From positions 1 through 48,195 of the forward strand of contig JAFYQH010000002.1 of the NCBI GenBank assembly GCA_017547205.1: 48,195 nt of DNA, written 5' to 3'. The notes beneath the pieces are model-generated. The model saw nothing but the letters and a program-made list of their open reading frames with translations. It did no database searches and had not been told where the DNA came from. This document shows positions 26,355 through 41,583 of the stretch, one piece after another; position 1 is the stretch's first letter, and the number at the start of each line of letters is the position of its first letter. This DNA is from Bacteroidaceae bacterium (lineage in GTDB: Bacteria; Bacteroidota; Bacteroidia; Bacteroidales; Bacteroidaceae). The translations under genes were made by a program, and so were the position numbers.

Positions 26355-28271
26355 ATGGATAAAAGAAGCATCATCGGATATGTACTCATTGGTATTGTAC
26401 TCATTGGTTACTTCATGCTCAACCAGCCCAGTGCCGAGGACATGGCAAGACAACAGAGATACAATGACTCGATAGCAATCGTACTCAAAAACAAGGAACT
26501 TGCCGAGAAGGCACAGGAGCAGATAAGGCTCAATGAAATAGAAGCACAGAAAAACGACTCCACCGACATACTGTTCAATGCTCTGAACGGAACGGAGGAG
26601 ACCATAATATTGTCCAACGACCTTGTAAAAGTAAACATATCCACACTCGGAGGTACCGTATCATCGGTCATACTCAAGGAATACAGAAACCAGCAGGGAA
26701 GCGAGCTTGTCATGTTCGACAAGAACGACAAAGTTGCCGGTAAGGAAAGAAACACGCTTAACTTTGTATTCGAAGGCAAGCAGGGTGTAAGGAATATAAG
26801 TACCGACAACCTATATTTCACCGCATTGGACAGGAACGAAAATTCCGTAACGATGCGCCTGGCGCTTGGCACCGACAAGTATGTTGACTTCAGATACAGG
26901 CTCAACGGCTACATGCTCGACATGCATATCGACGCCCATAACATGGACGATATTCTAAGTACCAAGAAAGATGTCGAAATCGAGTGGAGACAGTATGCCC
27001 GTCAGCATGAGCCGGGATATGAGTTTGAGCAGCGATATACAAACATAACATACAAGCCAACGAACGACGACAGCGATTACCTGAGCGAGATGCAGGACGA
27101 GAGCGAGAAGTTCACGGAGCCTATGAAATGGATTGCGTTCAAAAACCAGTTCTTCTCATGCATAATGATTGCCGGGAACGAGTTCAGTGACGTAAATCTC
27201 GATTCCAGAAAGATTGAGAAAGGACAGGACATGCTCAAGAGCTTCTCGGCAAGTATGAACGCCCCTTTTGACCCTACAGGACGCGACGCAACAGGCATAC
27301 AGTTCTACTTCGGTCCTAACAGGTTCGGTACACTACAGGAGTGTAGCGGCATGTCACTAAACGCCGGTGACGACCTTGAGCTGGAGGAGATAATCTACTT
27401 TGGATGGCCTATTGTACGCTGGATAAACCGCTACTTCATCATGTACCTGTTCGACGGTCTCTCGGGCCTTGGACTGAACATGGGTCTCGTACTCATACTG
27501 CTTACCATAATCGTAAAGGTCATCGTATACCCCTTTACAAAGAAGTCATATGTTTCATCGGCAAAAATGCGCGCACTCAAGCCGTACATCGACGAGATAA
27601 ACGCCAAGTACACTAAGAAGGAGGATGCTCTGAAGAAACAGCAAGAGATTATGGGACTCTACTCCAAGTATGGTGCAAGCCCCATGGGCGGATGCCTGCC
27701 GATGCTCATACAGATGCCCGTATTCATCGCTCTTTTCAACTTTGTCCCCAACGCAATTGAACTGCGACAGGAAAGTTTCCTTTGGGCGCATGACCTTTCG
27801 GCCTACGACTCGCTGATAAGTTGGGACCAGCCGATATGGCTCATAGGCAACCACATAAGCATTTTCTGTCTCCTGTTCTGCGTAACACAGATAGTGAACA
27901 CTTACTACACAAGCCGCATGCAGCCGAGCATGGGAGGCTCCGAGATGGAACAGCAGCAGAAGATGATGCGCTGGATGATGTACCTCATGCCGGTAATGTT
28001 CTTCTTCATGTTCAACGACTACTCATCGGGACTCAACTTCTACTATTTCGTATCCACCCTCATCAGTGTCGGCATATTCATCTACCTGAGACGCGCCATC
28101 AAGGAGGATGAACTGCTCAAGAAGATGGAGGCATACGCAGTGAGCAACAAGAACAATCCTGCAAAGAAAAGCAACATGATGGCACGCCTCGAAGCACTCC
28201 AGGAGCAGCAGAGAAAACTTGCCGAAGAGCAGGAGAGAATGAGAAACGCAAGAAAGAACAAGAATAAATAA
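26355..28271 (+). CDS. yidC: Membrane protein insertase YidC/Oxa1
   Basis: The 638-residue inner-membrane protein inserts and folds membrane proteins, alone or with Sec. An N-terminal anchor (IIGYVLIGIVLIGYFML) is followed by a large periplasmic domain (about 60-340). The conserved insertase core begins near 350 (FDGLSGLGLNMGLVLILLTIIVK) and includes MGGCLPMLIQMPVFIALF and FYYFVSTLISVGIFIYLRR. The basic, charged C-terminus is typical of ribosome-contacting tails. It overlaps nothing; the next start is seven bases after its stop. Confidence 0.97.
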   Translation: MDKRSIIGYVLIGIVLIGYFMLNQPSAEDMARQQRYNDSIAIVLKNKELAEKAQEQIRLNEIEAQKNDSTDILFNALNGTEETIILSNDLVKVNISTLGGTVSSVILKEYRNQQGSELVMFDKNDKVAGKERNTLNFVFEGKQGVRNISTDNLYFTALDRNENSVTMRLALGTDKYVDFRYRLNGYMLDMHIDAHNMDDILSTKKDVEIEWRQYARQHEPGYEFEQRYTNITYKPTNDDSDYLSEMQDESEKFTEPMKWIAFKNQFFSCIMIAGNEFSDVNLDSRKIEKGQDMLKSFSASMNAPFDPTGRDATGIQFYFGPNRFGTLQECSGMSLNAGDDLELEEIIYFGWPIVRWINRYFIMYLFDGLSGLGLNMGLVLILLTIIVKVIVYPFTKKSYVSSAKMRALKPYIDEINAKYTKKEDALKKQQEIMGLYSKYGASPMGGCLPMLIQMPVFIALFNFVPNAIELRQESFLWAHDLSAYDSLISWDQPIWLIGNHISIFCLLFCVTQIVNTYYTSRMQPSMGGSEMEQQQKMMRWMMYLMPVMFFFMFNDYSSGLNFYYFVSTLISVGIFIYLRRAIKEDELLKKMEAYAVSNKNNPAKKSNMMARLEALQEQQRKLAEEQERMRNARKNKNK

Positions 28272-31226: not shown

Positions 31227-32969
31227 ATGAAAAGAAAGAACCTTTTACAGGCACTGTTTGCAGCCACGCTACTCGTTTGTTCTACAGCCACAGCGCAGGA
31301 GAGCAAGGCTGGTGCCGACGAGAATACATACGGTAACATTGTAGTATATCTTGAGACCGCCGAATGGGGACAGGGGTACCCCTATAACCAGTTGTGCTTC
31401 ACCACAAAAGGAGCTCAGGCAAAGACAGGATGCGTACCGACAGCCTACGCAATTCTCATGAACTATCACAAATGGCCACAAAGTGCAAACGAAAAGAAGG
31501 TCTATCATTCCGGTACAGGGGAAAGCATCACGCTCGGTCACGAATACGACTGGGAGAACATGCTCCATAACTACAGTGCAAGCTACAACGAAACAGAAGC
31601 TACAGCTGTTGCAACACTCATGCGTGACCTCGGATACGCCTACCAGGTTGAGTACGGCACCGGAAGTACCGTTTCGGGCGGCGGTGGAGAAGGTGCAGCA
31701 AAGCTCATAGAAATATTCAAGTACAAGAGTGAGTCCCCCAACATACAATCGGCTACAATGGCAACAGGCCGAGATATCCTTGGCAACGACGAACTTTGGG
31801 TACAATACATCAAAGAGAGCCTCGATGCAGGCTGTCCCATCCCCTATTCATCCACAACAACAGGTGGAGGACGCCACATTTTCATCCTTGACGGCTACAC
31901 CGACAATGGCTATTTCCATTTCAACTGGGGCTGGGGTGGACAGGGCAACGGTTGGTTCAAGCTCGACGAGATGAAGCCCGACGCATATAGTGACTACTCA
32001 AAATCGCACAAAGCATACTTCATGCTAAAACCAGACAAGCCAGAGGATATTGAAGATGATAACAACAGCGGTGATAGCGAAGACAATACAGAAACAGAAA
32101 GTGTCCCTGCTGAAGTTACAATAAAGACAGAAGCAACCATAGGTGGCACAGCCACTGTAAACAGCGACAAAGAGACAACTGCACCTGTAGGCAAGATACT
32201 TTCACTACTTGCCACCCCCGATGCAGGATACACCTTTGTTGAATGGAGAGTGGGCACTGAAGTTATAAGCACTGATGCGTTTTTCTCCACCACAGCACAT
32301 AACGACAGGCTATACACCGCAATATTCGTTGAAAACGGCGAAACAACGACTGTAGAGGTCAAAGGTAGCGGCGGCTACATGTATGTCGGCAGTGGGAGCA
32401 ATAGGAAGCTCGAAGTCCCAATAGGCGACACAACCTTCATACGCGCCGAGGCTCTTGAAGGTAGCGGCAAGAAGTTTGCATATTGGTCAATCGGCAACAC
32501 CATAGCCAGTGGCAGAGGAACAATATTCACAAACGAGAACCCCTACTCGTTCACTGTAACGGGAAAAACCGTTTTCTATGCAAATTTTGTAGCAGAAGAC
32601 GTTGACCTCGATGTAACCGTCAAGGCAACAGCAACAGCAGGTGGCAAGGCCACCATCTATGGTGTACAGGAGCAGACTATCGCATTGGGCAGCAAGCTTA
32701 TACTGGAAGCAAAGGCCGACAGCGGATACCATTTTGTCAACTGGACATGCGGTACCGAAGTCGTGAGCACAGAGCCTGTCTATAACACCGTTGCAAGGGA
32801 AGCATGTACCGTCACGGCCAATTTTGCAAAGATTCAGAGCACCGGCATCGAGAACGTTGCAGAGACAGCCAAAGAGGGCGATATCTACGACCTCCAAGGC
32901 CGCAAGACCGGAAAAATCACCAAACCGGGCATATACATCATCAACGGCAGAAGTGTCATGGCAAAATAA
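31227..32969 (+). CDS. Secreted C10 (streptopain-type) cysteine protease with three InlB-like repeats
   Basis: The 580-residue protein begins with a signal peptide (LLVCSTATAQ, residues 1-24). The C10 domain follows at once (about 30-270): Cys69 in AKTGCVPTAYAILMNYHKWP is the nucleophile and His217 in GGRHIFILDGY the base, with YFHFNWGWGGQGNGWF completing the site. A streptopain-type pro-domain is missing. Three glycine-rich beta repeats of the divergent InlB B type lie at about 296-370, 372-457 and 460-537 (TPDAGYTFVEWRVGTEV, GKKFAYWSIGNTI, KADSGYHFVNWTCGTEV). The end (YDLQGRKTGKITKPGIYII) is shared with the next gene. Likely role: cleavage of host or dietary protein outside the cell. Confidence 0.92.
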   Translation: MKRKNLLQALFAATLLVCSTATAQESKAGADENTYGNIVVYLETAEWGQGYPYNQLCFTTKGAQAKTGCVPTAYAILMNYHKWPQSANEKKVYHSGTGESITLGHEYDWENMLHNYSASYNETEATAVATLMRDLGYAYQVEYGTGSTVSGGGGEGAAKLIEIFKYKSESPNIQSATMATGRDILGNDELWVQYIKESLDAGCPIPYSSTTTGGGRHIFILDGYTDNGYFHFNWGWGGQGNGWFKLDEMKPDAYSDYSKSHKAYFMLKPDKPEDIEDDNNSGDSEDNTETESVPAEVTIKTEATIGGTATVNSDKETTAPVGKILSLLATPDAGYTFVEWRVGTEVISTDAFFSTTAHNDRLYTAIFVENGETTTVEVKGSGGYMYVGSGSNRKLEVPIGDTTFIRAEALEGSGKKFAYWSIGNTIASGRGTIFTNENPYSFTVTGKTVFYANFVAEDVDLDVTVKATATAGGKATIYGVQEQTIALGSKLILEAKADSGYHFVNWTCGTEVVSTEPVYNTVAREACTVTANFAKIQSTGIENVAETAKEGDIYDLQGRKTGKITKPGIYIINGRSVMAK

Positions 32970-32988: not shown

Positions 32989-33025
32989 AGAGTGTGGAAT
33001 CCCATGGGTTCCACACTCTTTTTTT
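32989..33025 (+). terminator. Terminator of the first C10 gene
   Basis: A GC-rich stem of up to 14 pairs with one bulged T (32989-33003 with 33006-33019; the innermost pairs around the ATG of CCCATGGG may be open) leads into a run of seven Ts or more. Confidence 0.8.
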
Positions 33026-33339: not shown

Positions 33340-36300
33340 ATGAAAAACTTTTTACGTGTAGCAGCACTCGCCATTTGCGCCATTCTGATGACCGCAAATG
33401 CCAGCGCGCAAGGCACTTACGACCAAGCGACAATGGGAGCCAAAGTCGTAGAGATGGAAACAGCCAGTTGGGGACAGAACTCCCCATTCAACAATTACTG
33501 CTGGAGTGAATACGGCGGTAGTACACACGCAAAGGCAGGTTGCGTACCTGTAGCCTTTGCAATTGTAATGCGTTACCACGGATTCCCTGCAGAAGGAACT
33601 TCAAGCACATTGTACAACTGCCAGGCATCCACTTATGTGGAAGTCACTGACAGGACATACGATTGGGAGAAGATGCCTCTTACCAATGGCTCCGGCTGGA
33701 CAACAGAGCAGCAGAACGAGGTTGCAAAACTCATCTCGCATCTTGGACACGCTTTTGGAGTAAGCTACGGTGTAAGCCAGACATCTGTCTCAATTGGAGA
33801 TTCACAGACTGAAAGACTTACAAAATATTTCAATTACAAAGCCGCATCAGCAACATCCCAATATCCAAGCAACAACAATTTGGAGAATTGGAAGCAGAAA
33901 ATCAAGGAGAGCCTTAACAATGGCTGTCCTGTACCTTATGCTGCAAACAACACTGGAACAGGAGACTCACGTCATATGTTCGTGATTGACGGATATACAA
34001 GCAACGACTATTTCCACTTCAACTTCGGTTGGAACGGCAGTGGCAACGGCTGGTTCAAGCTCGACAACATCACACCGGCGCAGGGCGATAATTATTCTTG
34101 GTCGGATGACGGCGATGGATATACCTCAAAGCACCAGGCATTCTTCAACTTGATGCCAAACAAGACACCACGCACCGTTACAGCAACTACAAACTCATCA
34201 AGTATGGGTACTGTGTCTATCAACGGCGGCACTGCCGGCAACAGTGTAAGCGCAGAGGTGACAGAAGGTACAAAGGCTACCCTCACAGCGCACCCTGCCG
34301 ATGGTTATGCCCTTGCAAGCTGGACAAAGAACGGCGTTATTGTAGGCACAAAGAGCCCCATTCAGGTAACTGTGGGCGAAAGCGGCAACGACTATGTTGC
34401 AAACTTTGACGATGCTGCAAATGTGCAGATTGAGAAAACTTGCACATTCAATATTTCGAATGTAACCACAAGCGGAGTCAATGAAAAATATTGCAGCACC
34501 TGGACAACAAGCGACGGTATAGTATTGAGTTGTTCAAAAGGTTCAGAACCGGCATACGCCCTTTCTACAACCGTCAATACATTCTTCGCAAAAGCAGGCC
34601 TAGCCAGTACCCCCGAAACTTTGGTATCAGACATCACCTATACATTGACCGCACCCGAAGGTTTTGTGATAAAAAGCTATAGCTTCAAAGGCAAAAGCCC
34701 CAGCAGCTCTTATACCATAGATGTTACAGTTGGAGGAAATACAACAAACGTAACCAATGCCAGTGCGGGTGTTGTAATTTCAACATCAGACATCAATTCA
34801 AAAAGCACTTCATTTGTATTGGGTTCAACCTATACTGGACGTGCCGGCTTGTCCATTATGGAAGACGGTGTCACTGTAACCATCGTATCAGAAGGCGGTG
34901 CCTCTACCCCAACTCCCGACCCAGAGCCGGAGCCGGAGCCAACCCCAACAACCTACAACATCACAGCCGAGGCTTCGCCACAAAACGCCGGCAAGGTTGC
35001 CATCAACGGTGGTGCACAATCTACCATTGCCAACATTGATGTCACAAGCGGTTCAACAGTTTCTTTGCAAGCATACCCCAACAGTGGTTATGAATTTGCA
35101 GGATGGTACAATGGAACAACAAAGGTTAGCAACAACAACCCTTATTCTATTACTGCAACAGCGGATGTCAGCTACATTGCAAGTTTCCAAGAGGTTCAGC
35201 AGGGCGGTAGCTCAAGCAACGACCTCGCCGGCCGCTATTTCCGTTTGAAAACAACCGTTAATAGTGCAGCGAAGTATTTGAATGTTGCAGACAACAACAC
35301 ACACACAGCAGGAGCTTATGGTGGTGTAAATGTTGCAACCTTGGACGAAAGTAGCAATGCGCAAATCTTCTACTTTGAGGCAAGCGGCGATGGATATAAG
35401 CTAAAGGACAAAAACGGTTATTATATCAAGGGGCAAGAATGGAATGTTGATGCCAATTCAACAGTTGCCGCAAACGGTTCAGTTCTTCTGTTCGAGGAGA
35501 CTGATAATATCAATGAATACTACATTAAATGGAACAACACGACCAAAGGTGGTATAAGATATTTCAAGGTAGGTCTTGGCCAGAATACCAGCAACTATTA
35601 CCCATATGGAGACGAGGCAAATAAAGCAAGCGCTGCCGTTTGGGTTCTCGAAGAGGTTATCCCTTCTAACGAGAAGACTTTGAATGTGACATACTCAGGT
35701 GCTACTTGGAACAATGAAGCAAGTGGATGGTGGGTTTCTGTTGTAACAAATACCACTCCGGCCATTACAGTAAAGACCACAGATGGCACAGCGAAGATTG
35801 GTTACAGCACCTTTAATGGAATAAGACACCCATACCTGCTCGACGGTAACAGCTTCACAATCTCAGTTCCTGCAAATTGTAAGATTAAAGGTTATAGACT
35901 GGGTTATAAGGCTCACAACTTGGTTTCAAAGACAGTCACATATACCAATGGCAAACAGAGCACAGGTACATTAACCATAGCCCAGAGTGATGAAGAAAAC
36001 ACCCTTACAGTTACAGAACTTGACAATAGTGAAATAGCCATTAGCGTAGCTGACCAATCATCACAGGCCGGTTTTATTATTAAATCACTTGAAATCACAT
36101 ACGTTGAGAATGAATTCACTCCACTGCCATTCAAGGCCGAGATTGAGGGTTGGAGAAATGATAACCCCAACACTCATTTGGGTACAATAACCATTGGCGG
36201 AACAGCAATGAAGCTCACTCCTGCTCACCAAACAGCAAGCGAGCTTACAATGCCGCTTGCAGAGGGTACAGCACTTGCATTCACACGCAAGTACCGTGGC

Positions 36301-39093
36301 TTCGAGTTCAACGGTTTCTACATTGGTTCAACTTCACTTGGCGAGAACCCGACACTCACCGCAGAGCACGTTGCTGCTATCAACGAAACAACACCGCTCG
36401 TTGCAAAGTTCAAAGCAACCGACGATGTGACTCTGTTCTACGATGATGACCAGTACTCTTACCGCATCCCTGCTATTGCAAAGACCGGTAACGGTATGCT
36501 TGTTGCAGTAAGTGACTACCGTCATAACCTTGATGATATTGGCCGTGACAATCACGGAACAGGTACAAAGCGTATTGACCTTGTAATGCGTACAAGTACC
36601 GACAACGGCGCTACTTGGAGCGAAACAAAGACCATTGCAGCCGGTGACAACAGCAAAGCAGGCAGTTACTTGCGTGCATTCGGCGATGCAGCCATTGCAG
36701 CAGTTGGACAGAACATCGTTGTTATGGCGGCAGCCGGTGATGTGGTTTACACTGCTGGAACAACAAGCAGTCCCAACAAGATGGCACGTATATACAGTAC
36801 CGACAACGGTGCTACCTGGACCATTGAGGAGATGACAACAAAGATGTACTCACAGAGCACCAGTCTCATCCCAAGCGGTGGTTCGGCATTCTTCGGTAGC
36901 GGTAAATTGGCTGTTGACCCCAATTTCAACGGCACAGGCAATGCGCGCATATATGGTGCTTTGCTTGTGAGAATTGGTACAGATGGCTACAATAACTTTG
37001 GTGTATTCAGCGATGATCTTGGTGCTACCTGGAAAATTCTTGGTGGTGACAACACAAACCCGGTAGCAAAAGGCGACGAGCCAAAGGTTGAGATTTTGCC
37101 TAACGGACAGATTCTCCTGAGTGCACGCCGTGGTGGTGGCCGTGTGTTCCGCATATTCACATACGGCGACGACAAAGCCAATGGCGCAGGCTCTTGGGGC
37201 GATGCAGCTGTCAACGGTTGCGACAACGGCGGCAGCAACGCCACAAACGGCGAAATCATCTGCCTCGATGCAAAGAAACCCAACGGCAAGCCTACAAAGA
37301 TTCTGTTGCAGTCACAGCCAAAGGGCGGTAGCGGACAGTATGACCGTTACAATGTAACTATCTGGTACAAGGAGGTAAGCGCGAATGAGACATATACAGC
37401 TGCTGAAATTGCAAGCGGTTGGACACAAGGCCTTGAGGTAAGCCCAGCAGATGTGAAGAGTGCATACAGTGCAATGTGCTTGCAGGAGAATGGCAAGATT
37501 GCTTTCTTCTTTGAGGAGGCTCCTTGCTACGGCGATGACCACACAAAGGGTTACTCAATGGTATATGTTCCATTGACAATTGAGGAGATTACAGAGAACA
37601 ATTTCCTCAACCCCAATGCCGATGTTGAATATGTACCAACTGAATTCAGCATTGTGTTGACTGATACACTGGGTAATGAATACCGCGAGACACTCGACTA
37701 CATCCCGAACAATGTAGCTGCAGTAGAAAGCTACCTGACAACAACATACCCATTCATCACACTGGGTAACGTTGGAGCTATAGCCGACAACAAATACGCC
37801 AACACCGTTACATTGCCATTCAAGGTAAGTAACGCAGAGAACGCTTACTGGCACAATATCTACTGGCCGGCAAACGGTACATCTGCAGGAGAGTTCTACC
37901 CCATTTATATGATGGCAAATACAGACAATGCAACAAATGTTGCCAAAATTACCGAGAAGGTTCATTACGGTAACAGCCAGTACAACACTCTTGCTTACGC
38001 CGACAAACTTAGCTGGGCTGTATATAGCGTAAACAACACACTAACATTCAAGTTCAAGAACAAGTTGACAGGCAACTTTATGGCAGTCAATGGCGTTGTA
38101 AGTAGTGGCAATGAAAACAATGTTATATACACCGATGAAGCAAATGCAACCGCGTTTACTCTTACAAAGAACCCCGGCACAAATAACAACTGGAAAGGCG
38201 ACTATGCAATAACGTCAGTATATAATAGTACAACCGGTTATGTATGCAACACATCTGCCAATTATGCAAATGCCACCAACTACGCAAGCTACACTCACCC
38301 TGGTGCTTGGGCTAAATTCGTTGAAGCCCCCGACTATGCGGCATTGATTGAGGAAGTGAAAGCGGCTCTTGCAAAGTTCGGCGATGCTGCAGGGCAATAT
38401 ACACCAAACTCTGAGGATAAAAATGATATTGATGCTGCCAGAACAGCAATGGACAACAGCGGTAGTTTAGTTCTTAACGAACTGAATGGGTACAAGGCTT
38501 TGGCGACTGAGGCTTTGGCGCGTGCTACAGAAAATTACACCCTTTATGTAACCAGTGCCGGTTATGCGACCATGTATCTTGGCTATCCCGCTGCTATCCC
38601 CGCAGGTGTCGAGGCCTATACAGTAACATCTGTCAGTGAAAGCCATGCTGCTTTGACACCGGTTACAGGTGTTCTGCCTGCAAACACAGGTATCATTGTA
38701 AAGGCTGCTGAGGGCAACTACACATTTGCTTATTCAAAAGAAACTCCAGCCACTGTTGCGGGCAACCTCTTGGAGGGTACTGTTGATGCAACAGAAATTA
38801 ATGTAGAAGCTTACGTTCTTGGTATTGTTGACGGTGAGGTAGGTCTTTACAAGGCAAAGATGACTGATGGCAAGTGGTTGAACAACGCCAACAAGGCATA
38901 CTTGCCTGCAAGCGCAGTACCTAACAAGACTGTTGCATTCTACGGCTTTGATTGGGATGGCACAACAGGCGTTGAGAAAGTAGAAATCAGAAATGAGAAA
39001 GAAGAAATCTACGACCTCTGCGGACGCCGCATTGAATCAATAACCTCACCGGGCATTTATATTGTGAACGGCAGAAAGGTTCTGGTAAAATAA
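33340..39093 (+). CDS. Exported fusion of a C10 cysteine protease and a GH33 sialidase
   Basis: This 1917-residue protein has a signal peptide (1-23) and a C10 domain (about 28-278) with Cys68 in AKAGCVPVAFAIVMRYHGFP and His212 in SRHMFVIDGY. Then come an InlB-like repeat (279-357), a beta domain (360-520), a Pro/Glu linker (521-537), a second repeat (538-617), a trefoil-like domain (625-773), a second beta domain (777-926) and a third repeat-like segment (927-1027). A GH33 sialidase spans about 1030-1415: Arg1042 in YRIPAI, Arg1061 and Asp1065/1066, Asp boxes at 1086, 1153 and 1224, Glu1251, Arg1263/1264, Arg1336 and Tyr1376. After it lie a second trefoil-like region (about 1495-1660), helices (1665-1730), a beta domain and a tail shared with the preceding gene. 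All catalytic residues appear intact. It should cut protein and release sialic acid from glycoproteins. Confidence 0.93.
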   Translation: MKNFLRVAALAICAILMTANASAQGTYDQATMGAKVVEMETASWGQNSPFNNYCWSEYGGSTHAKAGCVPVAFAIVMRYHGFPAEGTSSTLYNCQASTYVEVTDRTYDWEKMPLTNGSGWTTEQQNEVAKLISHLGHAFGVSYGVSQTSVSIGDSQTERLTKYFNYKAASATSQYPSNNNLENWKQKIKESLNNGCPVPYAANNTGTGDSRHMFVIDGYTSNDYFHFNFGWNGSGNGWFKLDNITPAQGDNYSWSDDGDGYTSKHQAFFNLMPNKTPRTVTATTNSSSMGTVSINGGTAGNSVSAEVTEGTKATLTAHPADGYALASWTKNGVIVGTKSPIQVTVGESGNDYVANFDDAANVQIEKTCTFNISNVTTSGVNEKYCSTWTTSDGIVLSCSKGSEPAYALSTTVNTFFAKAGLASTPETLVSDITYTLTAPEGFVIKSYSFKGKSPSSSYTIDVTVGGNTTNVTNASAGVVISTSDINSKSTSFVLGSTYTGRAGLSIMEDGVTVTIVSEGGASTPTPDPEPEPEPTPTTYNITAEASPQNAGKVAINGGAQSTIANIDVTSGSTVSLQAYPNSGYEFAGWYNGTTKVSNNNPYSITATADVSYIASFQEVQQGGSSSNDLAGRYFRLKTTVNSAAKYLNVADNNTHTAGAYGGVNVATLDESSNAQIFYFEASGDGYKLKDKNGYYIKGQEWNVDANSTVAANGSVLLFEETDNINEYYIKWNNTTKGGIRYFKVGLGQNTSNYYPYGDEANKASAAVWVLEEVIPSNEKTLNVTYSGATWNNEASGWWVSVVTNTTPAITVKTTDGTAKIGYSTFNGIRHPYLLDGNSFTISVPANCKIKGYRLGYKAHNLVSKTVTYTNGKQSTGTLTIAQSDEENTLTVTELDNSEIAISVADQSSQAGFIIKSLEITYVENEFTPLPFKAEIEGWRNDNPNTHLGTITIGGTAMKLTPAHQTASELTMPLAEGTALAFTRKYRGFEFNGFYIGSTSLGENPTLTAEHVAAINETTPLVAKFKATDDVTLFYDDDQYSYRIPAIAKTGNGMLVAVSDYRHNLDDIGRDNHGTGTKRIDLVMRTSTDNGATWSETKTIAAGDNSKAGSYLRAFGDAAIAAVGQNIVVMAAAGDVVYTAGTTSSPNKMARIYSTDNGATWTIEEMTTKMYSQSTSLIPSGGSAFFGSGKLAVDPNFNGTGNARIYGALLVRIGTDGYNNFGVFSDDLGATWKILGGDNTNPVAKGDEPKVEILPNGQILLSARRGGGRVFRIFTYGDDKANGAGSWGDAAVNGCDNGGSNATNGEIICLDAKKPNGKPTKILLQSQPKGGSGQYDRYNVTIWYKEVSANETYTAAEIASGWTQGLEVSPADVKSAYSAMCLQENGKIAFFFEEAPCYGDDHTKGYSMVYVPLTIEEITENNFLNPNADVEYVPTEFSIVLTDTLGNEYRETLDYIPNNVAAVESYLTTTYPFITLGNVGAIADNKYANTVTLPFKVSNAENAYWHNIYWPANGTSAGEFYPIYMMANTDNATNVAKITEKVHYGNSQYNTLAYADKLSWAVYSVNNTLTFKFKNKLTGNFMAVNGVVSSGNENNVIYTDEANATAFTLTKNPGTNNNWKGDYAITSVYNSTTGYVCNTSANYANATNYASYTHPGAWAKFVEAPDYAALIEEVKAALAKFGDAAGQYTPNSEDKNDIDAARTAMDNSGSLVLNELNGYKALATEALARATENYTLYVTSAGYATMYLGYPAAIPAGVEAYTVTSVSESHAALTPVTGVLPANTGIIVKAAEGNYTFAYSKETPATVAGNLLEGTVDATEINVEAYVLGIVDGEVGLYKAKMTDGKWLNNANKAYLPASAVPNKTVAFYGFDWDGTTGVEKVEIRNEKEEIYDLCGRRIESITSPGIYIVNGRKVLVK

Positions 39094-39337: not shown

Positions 39338-39627
39338 CCGGGAAGGACAGAACGATAATTGCAGATTTCGAGAGCAAGCTCCATAGGCTGGTATACGAAT
39401 ACAAGCAGAAGGAGGAACTGGTTCGTGAGCTATCGCTCAGGATTCAGGAGAAGGAGAACCTGCTTCAGGAACTGCAATTGCGCTGTACCGCTCTTGAGAA
39501 GAGCTACAACGACTTAAAGCAGGCAAGGGTCATCAGCCTTAGCGACGCTGCAATTGGCGATACTAAGGAGAGGATATCCAAGCTGGTGCGTGAAATCGAC
39601 CGATGCATCGAGTCGCTTAAGAAATAA
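39334..39627 (+). CDS. Small coiled-coil protein upstream of ZapA
   Basis: The 97-residue soluble protein is nearly all charged heptads (LHRLVYEYKQKEELVRELSLRIQEKENLLQEL, split over residues 17-50), then a short break with ISLSDAAIGDT and a last helix IDRCIESLKK. It was not matched to a named family by eye. Its stop overlaps the zapA start as TAATG, so translation is coupled. A cell-division partner like ZapB would be a guess from position and coil. Confidence 0.8.
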   Translation: MTGKDRTIIADFESKLHRLVYEYKQKEELVRELSLRIQEKENLLQELQLRCTALEKSYNDLKQARVISLSDAAIGDTKERISKLVREIDRCIESLKK

Positions 39628-39941
39628 TGGAAAGGGCCATGCATATGGAAGATAGAGATTTGGGAATAAACCTTATAATAGACGGCATATCGTACCCGCT
39701 GACCGTGAAAGCCAGCGAGGAGCCATACTACAGGCAGGCTGCACGCATGGTAAACGAAAAATTGTCACTATATAAAGAGCTGTTCGGCAGCCAGGACGGT
39801 GTCAGAGTCACCATTATGGCAGCCCTTGATATCGCATTCAATTCGGTAAGAAGCACCGATGAAGCCGGTTCGGCCGAAGTGATGCGCAAGATAAAGGAAC
39901 TGGCATATCTGGTCGACAGCACACTCGAGACCAAAAAGTAA
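39627..39941 (+). CDS. zapA: Cell division protein ZapA
   Basis: The 104-residue protein binds FtsZ and promotes its bundling at midcell. Family features are the N-terminal INLIIDGISYPLTVKASEEPYYRQAARMVNEK split across residues 14-45, then VRVTIMAALDIAFN and a C-terminal coil. The length is normal. The first ATG overlaps the previous stop; a second ATG seven codons on (in MEDRDLG) is also usable. It is followed after 97 bases by rny. Confidence 0.88.
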   Translation: MERAMHMEDRDLGINLIIDGISYPLTVKASEEPYYRQAARMVNEKLSLYKELFGSQDGVRVTIMAALDIAFNSVRSTDEAGSAEVMRKIKELAYLVDSTLETKK

Positions 39942-40038: not shown

Positions 40039-41583
40039 ATGGAGGGAATTACAACACTACTCATCGGATTGGCTGTAGGACTGCTCATTGGCTGCGTCGT
40101 ACAGTATCTGATCAACAAGTTCGGTCTGAAGGCTAAACGCCAGAGCATTATTGACGACGCACACAAGGAGGCCGAGGTAATAAAGAAGAACAAGCTGCTC
40201 GAAGTCAAGGAGAAGTTCCTTAACAAGAAGGCAGAGCTGGAGAAGGAGATTTCACAGCGCAACAACAAGATCCAGCAGGCAGAGCATAACCTCAAACAGC
40301 GAGAGGTGCAGTTCAACCAGCGCAACGAGGACCTGCAACGCCGCAAGAACGAGCTCGACGCATACAAGGATAACCTTGAAGCACAGAAGGGCACTCTCGA
40401 TCGCAAACAGGAAGAACTTGACAAACTCCATGCACAGGAGCTCGAGAAACTCGAGACAATAAGCGGCCTGTCGGCCGAAGAGGCAAAGGAGCGACTTGTA
40501 GAGTCACTCAAGGAAGAGGCCAAGAGCGAAGCTGCATCCTACATCAACGACATAATTGACGATGCGAAGATGACAGCAAACAAGGAGGCAAAGAAGATTG
40601 TGATACAGACAATACAGCGTGTTGCGACAGAGACAGCCATCGAGAACTCTGTCACGGTATTCCACATCGAGAACGACGAGATGAAAGGACGCATCATTGG
40701 CCGCGAAGGACGCAATATACGCGCGTTGGAAGCTGCGACAGGAGTGGAAATCGTTGTTGACGATACACCCGAGGCTATCGTGTTGAGCGCATTCGACCCC
40801 GTACGCCGCGAGATTGCACGCCTTGCTTTGCACCAGCTCGTTGCAGACGGACGCATCCACCCCGCACGTATCGAGGAGGTTGTGGCAAAAGTCAAGAAAC
40901 AGATTGAGGAGGAGATTATCGAAACAGGTAAGCGCACCACAATCGACCTTGGTATCCACGGCATGCACCCTGAACTCATACGCATCATAGGAAAGATGAA
41001 ATACCGCTCATCATACGGACAGAACCTACTGCAGCACGCACGTGAGACCGCCAACCTCTGTGCGATAATGGCCGCAGAACTTGGTCTCAACCCCAAGAAG
41101 GCAAAACGTGCCGGACTTTTGCACGATATAGGAAAAGTGCCCGACGAGGAGACCGAACTGCCACACGCAGAGTATGGTATGAAGATTGCCGAGAAGTTCA
41201 AGGAGAAACCCGACATATGCAATGCCATCGGTGCACACCACGACGAGGTTGAGATGACAAGCCTCATCGCCCCCATTGTGCAGGTATGTGACGCAATTTC
41301 AGGTGCACGCCCAGGCGCACGCCGTGAGATTGTCGAGGCCTACATCAAGCGTCTGCACGACCTTGAGCAGCTTGCAATGTCATACCCTGGCGTAACAAAA
41401 ACATATGCCATACAGGCCGGTCGCGAGTTGCGCGTGATTGTGGGTGCCGACAAGATTGACGACAAGCAGACCGAGCTGCTGTCGGGTGAGATTGCAAAGA
41501 AGATACAGGACGAGATGACCTACCCCGGACAGGTGAAGATTACCGTCATCCGCGAGACACGTGCCGTAAACTACGCACGATAA
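40039..41583 (+). CDS. rny: Ribonuclease Y
   Basis: This 514-residue membrane-bound endonuclease starts mRNA decay. One N-terminal helix (about residues 5-25) anchors it, a long coiled coil follows (about 30-190), then a KH domain with [19 protein letters not shown] and an HD domain with His362-Asp363 in [12 protein letters not shown] and [10 protein letters not shown]. The end, [20 protein letters not shown], is a hallmark of the family. Length is typical. It is the last gene of the coiled-coil/zapA group. Confidence 0.97.

Follow-up and report, generated by a model that had tools for sequence, protein, structure and literature searches.

The locus described here raises the question of whether a single polypeptide of a Bacteroidaceae bacterium could combine the removal of sialic acid with the cleavage of a protein backbone, and whether this combination would serve a joint purpose. 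Mucin breakdown is usually portrayed as the work of separate enzymes acting in relay, which often originate from different species, and sialic acid caps protect mucin-type proteins. In the analysed stretch of 48,195 nucleotides (termed the window), which corresponds to the whole of contig C12 (JAFYQH010000002.1) of a metagenome-assembled genome (MAG) of 2.23 Mb on 83 contigs with a completeness of 83% (GCA_017547205.1), an earlier note had proposed that a C10 cysteine protease and a GH33 sialidase are encoded in one uninterrupted frame. This part of the proposal holds, as the open reading frame at positions 33340–39093 of the forward strand, on which all features of the window with positions given below are located, starts with ATG, contains no internal stop and encodes a fusion protein of 1917 residues.

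The protein shows a modular organization. A signal-peptide-like N-terminus, which was read from the sequence by eye (residues 1–23, positions 33340–33408), is directly followed by a domain of the C10 (streptopain) family of cysteine proteases (residues 24–275, 33409–34164). The succeeding part contains a first InlB-type B-repeat region, whose limits were set by eye and not by Pfam (residues 276–355, 34165–34404), the domain X1 without family match (residues 375–535, 34462–34944), a second B-repeat (residues 553–619, 34996–35196), which is the best of the two stretches matched by the Pfam family Flg_new_2, and the domains X2 (residues 630–770, 35227–35649) and X3 (residues 771–925, 35650–36114), the latter being modelled with beta structure. 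The GH33 sialidase module (residues 925–1425, 36112–37614) precedes the domains X4/X5 (residues 1440–1725, 37657–38514) and a C-terminal region common to other frames of the genome, which is probably a type IX sorting tail (residues 1731–1917, 38530–39090). With the C10 domain ending near residue 275 and the propeller starting near residue 1033, the spacing of about 760 residues given previously is accurate. Among the intervening domains, X2 is also found in the fusion protein L027 and, at 36–39% identity, in the GH20-sialidase L034 and four similar frames, and our guess would be that it resembles a trefoil lectin. X3 is confined to the five C10-sialidase fusions described below (E 1e-6, ORFs of the loci L001–L067), and X4/X5 have counterparts in further fusion proteins as well as in L030, a GH20-sialidase.

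The assignment of the protease is supported by a match to the Pfam family Peptidase_C10, which extends over the entire profile (residues 44–239, positions 1–194 of 194, 162.4 bits compared to a cut-off of 26, E 2e-47), and by a search of solved structures, which relates the N-terminus to interpain A and streptopain. Its site appears intact, as claimed earlier, since Cys68 (codon 33541–33543) and His212 (codon 33973–33975) occupy the same alignment columns as the Cys and His of both proteins, which we take to be the catalytic pair of C10 proteases, and the respective columns are invariant in an alignment of seven sequences. The residue following the Asn of the site is Phe in the window protein (NFGW) compared to Trp in interpain A and streptopain (NWGW). 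Although they belong to the same family and share the aligned Cys and His, interpain A and streptopain, unlike the window protein, contain no sialidase, and both carry an inhibitory prodomain that is missing here: the I69 (Spi) prodomain was not detected by Pfam in the window protein, whose C10 domain directly follows the signal-peptide-like stretch. Within the six long C10 chains scanned, I69 is found in L026, L027, L029 and L031 and is missing in the window protein and in L028. It is likewise absent from the short C10 protein encoded next to the fusion and from L045, and we have thus not treated it as a requirement for membership in the family. Elsewhere in the same genome, I69 is located at three places, in frames that agree in length and contig with other C10 matches.

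The sialidase is less readily captured by family profiles. Pfam BNR_2 reaches 29.3 bits on the window protein, which is below the gathering cut-off of 31.4. Since this cut-off is reached in only six of 16 other sialidase-bearing relatives, with nine scoring below (17.5–31.2 bits) and the sialidase of L033 showing no BNR_2 match at E 0.01, this profile is ill-suited as a test among these proteins. We have thus dropped Pfam alone as proof of a sialidase and relied on solved homologues and a structure model instead. The NCBIfam profile NF052328 (TDE0471 equivalog) matches residues 949–1422 with an E-value of 1.5e-66 and 225 bits compared to a cut-off of 900, and the window sialidase, as judged from its sequence, is therefore a relative of this equivalog and not the equivalog itself. 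Decisive for the assignment are the match of residues 941–1418 to the solved sialidase TDE_0471 of Treponema denticola (E 3e-52 with the whole chain and 4.2e-53 in a domain search) and the modelled fold. TDE_0471 and PG0352 of P. gingivalis are the nearest solved relatives of the module and, unlike the window protein, their solved chains encompass about 500 residues without a protease.

For PG0352, the residues Arg194, Asp219, Glu382, Arg398 and Tyr488 have been named (PMC10553830), which upon alignment correspond to Arg1042 (codon 36463–36465), Asp1066 (36535–36537), Glu1247 (37078–37080), Arg1263 (37126–37128) and Tyr1376 (37465–37467) of the window protein. Arg1336 (37345–37347) has an Arg as its counterpart in TDE_0471, whereas in PG0352 it is found opposite a Gly, a few places from an Arg pair, and the assignment of this third Arg thus rests on TDE_0471. 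The column of Asp1066 is occupied by Ala in the mutant chains TDE_0471 D165A and PG0352 D219A. Together with three Asp boxes (S-x-D-x-G-x-x-W) at residues 1086, 1153 and 1224, the RIP motif, the Arg triad, the Asp acid/base and the Tyr/Glu pair are all present by alignment, and both the sialidase and the C10 site look complete at the level of their residues. The site listed in the earlier note is confirmed with respect to Arg1042, Arg1263, Arg1336, Tyr1376 and the Asp boxes and has to be amended in other positions: the catalytic Glu is placed four residues from the proposed Glu1251, the alignment to PG0352 supports Arg1263 rather than Arg1264, and the acid/base Asp1066, which is found by alignment to both PG0352 and TDE_0471, had been left out.

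The structure of residues 770–1430 was modelled from 37 aligned rows with a mean pLDDT of 90.6, and the best 31 of the 50 PDB matches shown in a Foldseek search with this model are sialidases. The comparison with TDE_0471 (Foldseek E 1.7e-30, TM 0.51/0.67, rmsd 12.1) implies a different domain arrangement, and a TM-score of 0.76 on the target was obtained for the catalytic-only sialidase 1eur. A single-sequence AlphaFold model of residues 273–1429 was unusable (pLDDT 32.9). The genome of the window contains six sialidase-like matches, all below the cut-off of NF052328 and five of them in frames exceeding 1100 residues, which for a genome of 2.2 Mb amounts to a strong investment in sialoglycans. 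Besides the fusion, five of these sialidase-like matches and four other C10 matches (two of which probably represent one gene) are encoded elsewhere in the genome.

With respect to its localization, the protein had been described as exported, which is in line with its signal-peptide-like start, with the presence of the T9SS translocon SprA in the genome (TIGR04189, 2642 bits; the sole T9SS component searched for) and with its shared tail, although no sorting-domain model of Pfam or NCBIfam matches the C-terminus at E 0.01. The C-terminal 187 residues find 26 matches in the same genome, itself included, of which 24 extend to residue 184 or beyond and 17 span just the last 43–75 residues. Export by the T9SS is thus likely.

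The fusion gene is located in a slot bordered on the left by yidC (26355–28271) and a lysyltransferase-like gene and on the right by a zapA-like gene (39627–39941) and the gene of RNase Y (40039–41583). In between, the fusion is preceded by a second C10 protease of 580 residues without sialidase and I69 (31227–32969). A terminator-like hairpin of 14 pairs between the two C10 genes (32989–33019; one found compared to 0.5 expected in shuffled sequences) suggests that they reside on separate transcripts. The content of the slot differs between genomes: in G021, the left border is followed by a C10 protein of 641 residues and a fusion before the contig ends, in G007 a C10 protein of 658 residues and a C10 protein of 2358 residues without sialidase precede the right border, and in G036 a C10 protein of 562 residues is found alone between both borders. 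A short C10 protein and a frame whose beginning is similar to the GH20 proteins lie behind the fusion in both G025 and G005. The giant C10 protein at L031:4034-11107, which with its 2358 residues precedes zapA and the RNase Y gene in a position corresponding to the slot of the window, lacks a sialidase. It contains 11 B-repeat stretches and, in addition, segments that are 31–36% identical to the post-sialidase parts of the window protein.

A C10 domain and this sialidase are found in one frame in five of 44 genomes of the genus, with each species represented by one genome. Besides the window protein (1917 residues), the fusions comprise 3166 residues in G021, 3446 in G025, 3233 in G005 and 3140 in G037, and these four Bacteroidaceae MAGs, which belong to one RGIG series, were obtained from the rectum of sheep and yak and from the colon of water buffalo and dairy cattle. 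We infer that the genome of the window also originates from a ruminant hindgut. In G006 (L040), only the sialidase end is present at the edge of a contig, which might represent a sixth fusion. No fusion was found in the other 39 genomes among the matches listed, with up to ten candidates per genome and many of the MAGs being incomplete. In a search of the order, which covered 119 genomes with a C10 protein in at least 80 of them, none of the eight frames of 1290 or more residues among the matches listed, all of which belong to other families, contains a sialidase (37-row profile, E 0.1). A search of 399 genomes of the family, which scored at most two candidates per genome in the rows shown and which fusions with other sialidase clades could thus escape, revealed no match to the C10 region from another genus among the matches listed. 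As a separate observation, a sialidase frame occurs twice in G042, as inverted copies of identical score and length about 400 bases apart (G042:C59:131747-132877 and 133266-134396), which may be an assembly artefact.

The two ends of the fusion proteins differ in their history. The sialidase tree comprises 37 modules, with modules of 330 or fewer residues (including G006, L066 and L067) and duplicates left out. The five fused modules form one clade with a support of 99/99, and they are 67–90% identical to the module of the window protein. Conversely, the fused C10 domains are scattered among proteins without sialidase in the C10 tree, which comprises 26 domains, eight of them as outgroup rows, and leaves out duplicates, short pieces and the split C10 domain of L071. 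Monophyly of all five fused C10 domains, a group set by architecture and tested after the tree was seen, is rejected (p-AU 3e-8). A grouping of the four remaining after exclusion of L027, a set that was chosen after seeing the tree, gives p 0.001, and the label of being fused requires a minimum of five changes on the C10 tree. The same mosaic organization is manifested in segment identities. Relative to L027, the window protein reaches 95% identity in the first B-repeat region and 90% in X1, which directly succeed the C10 domain, compared to 41–43% within the C10 domain and 67% in the sialidase. For the remaining three fusions, the identity to X1 is 32–35%, with the domain covered in part or in full. 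Compared to L028, residues 20–47 are identical, yet the C10 domains share only 41–45% overall. In the simplest reading of these sequences, the protease end would have been exchanged with paralogues while the pairing was retained, with the tree being unable to separate gain from loss.

Kin of the window sialidase are also found behind a GH20 hexosaminidase (L030, L063), and in three MAGs a GH20 domain, the sialidase and an M12B-like metalloprotease reside in one chain of about 2800 residues (L059:38-8566 from dairy cattle, L064:5033-13504 from water buffalo and L065:5075-13498 from roe deer). The M12B-like domains score 79, 69 and 53 bits with Pfam Reprolysin_4 (cut-off 22) and contain an intact HExxHxxGxxH motif (HELGHMFGAxH), and it is on these two features that the assignment rests, since the domain of L059 showed no match to a solved structure at E 0.01. 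L063 lacks the metalloprotease although it is placed among L059, L064 and L065 in the sialidase tree. A more distant sialidase of another clade, which is matched by our own profile and not by BNR_2, is combined with a full GH95 enzyme in a chain of 2856 residues (L033:1641-10208). As far as can be judged from sequence, kin of one sialidase have thus been combined with two unrelated proteases, with the C10 domain placed at the N-terminal and the M12B-like domain at the C-terminal end.

On balance, we favour by a modest degree the view that the window protein is a bifunctional enzyme of (ruminant) hindgut Bacteroidaceae, which is secreted, probably retained at the cell surface, and would desialylate mucin-type glycoproteins and cut their exposed backbone, and a joint action of both sites on mucin appears plausible. 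We infer in this case the host, the export route, the activity, the substrate and the cooperation between both sites. The GH33 module would release the terminal sialic acids of mucins and other O-glycosylated host proteins, thereby uncapping either the backbone or glycans that serve as ligands of the intervening domains. The C10 domain of the same chain would cut nearby peptide, with the repeats and the unassigned domains acting as spacer, which might bind glycans and hold both sites on one substrate. This assignment draws support from the catalytic residues, the GH33 model, the recurrence in five of 44 genomes, the different descent of the C10 domains, the GH20 and M12B-like kin and SprA, as well as from the precedents of HC11 and SiaBb3 (see below), in analogy to which the window protein would first uncap and subsequently cut one and the same molecule. 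It is weakened by the lack of a match to a sorting domain, the missing I69, the NFGW sequence, the C10 protein without sialidase in G007 and the fact that no fusion was seen in 39 of 44 genomes among the matches listed.

C10 proteases and other proteases exported by the T9SS are capable of self-processing, and since C10 enzymes often cut themselves free, the two ends of the chain may separate. It is thus conceivable, if rather doubtful, that the C10 domain mainly matures the chain after export by freeing itself from the sialidase and the repeats, and that both enzymes then act apart or remain associated non-covalently, in the manner of gingipains. Such processing would agree with the long repeat-bearing linkers between both domains and with the absence of an I69 prodomain, but no cleavage site was identified, and with other C10 and sialidase-like frames in the genome, a joint gene would not be needed merely for making both. 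We regard it as unlikely that the target is not mucin but sialylated immune proteins, such as IgA, complement or serum glycoproteins. Published work describes the desialylation of complement factors by the GH33 relative PG0352 (PMC10553830) and the degradation of multiple immune components by streptopain (PMC4936053), but the joining of the sialidase kin to a hexosaminidase and of a more distant sialidase to GH95 would better fit a stepwise breakdown of O-glycans. That the pairing is a by-product of domain shuffling without joint function, originating from readily recombining repeats and C-terminal tails, appears improbable. Its strong mosaicism, the variation of the slot between species, which holds a C10 protein with either the fusion or the giant C10 protein or a short C10 protein alone, and the additional fusion of sialidases to GH20 and GH95 would all be expected from such shuffling, but against it stand the C10 partner of all five modules of one sialidase clade despite their differing C10 descent (with the G006 fragment being too short for inclusion in the tree), the confinement of X3 to these five proteins and the unrelated protease joined to kin of the same sialidase. 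Finally, although the window is a single contig of an incomplete MAG with some apparent redundancy, where the C10 frames on C19 and C74 agree in length and score, we have in practice ruled out the assembly join or frameshift that had been named as a concern, since four additional genomes, which originate from different samples, show the same domain order within a single frame and the frame of the window is free of stops, which leaves an artefact with a vanishingly small probability. The two C10 frames concerned (G000:C19:68162-68743 and G000:C74:991-1572) are probably one gene found twice and likely reflect redundancy of the genome.

Both domains belong to known families and we thus place the window protein with the multimodular sialidases. 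Their combination was not known to the earlier note as a described enzyme, and neither a C10-sialidase nor any other protease-sialidase enzyme was found among the papers listed from an open-licence library. Several characterized systems share individual features. The M60-like mucinase HC11 of Bacteroides fragilis requires the prior action of a sialidase for cleaving native mucin (PMC13003899), as proposed for the window protein, but the sialidase is a separate protein and the protease belongs to another family than C10. In SiaBb3 of Bifidobacterium bifidum, GH33 and GH123 are joined in one chain and act on mucin glycans in an ordered manner with the GH33 step needed first (PMC12856340), whereas the second enzyme is a glycosidase instead of a protease and the protein originates from a different phylum with a divergent sialidase. 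Finally, SiaA of Tenacibaculum maritimum (CE6-CBM40-two GH33-T9SS tail) is, like the window protein, a multimodular Bacteroidetes sialidase with predicted T9SS export, but its partner is an esterase and the C10 protease of this organism, MARIT_2328, is encoded by a separate gene (PMC5561996).

A chain that contains both the desialylating and the backbone-cutting step would permit a cheap and direct test of whether their joining in cis matters, and it would offer a tool for glycoproteomics, by which sialylated proteins are uncapped and cut in a single step. The different descent of the C10 domains under one sialidase clade constitutes a natural experiment in module evolution. Single chains of protease and sialidase could represent a recurrent design of ruminant gut Bacteroidaceae, where an N-terminal C10 and a C-terminal M12B-like protease were joined separately and where paralogues took the place of the C10 end without loss of the linkage, a proposal that we consider a realistic possibility and put forward tentatively. 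If true, the linkage itself would be under selection, as a mucinase that uncaps and cuts its substrate within one molecule.
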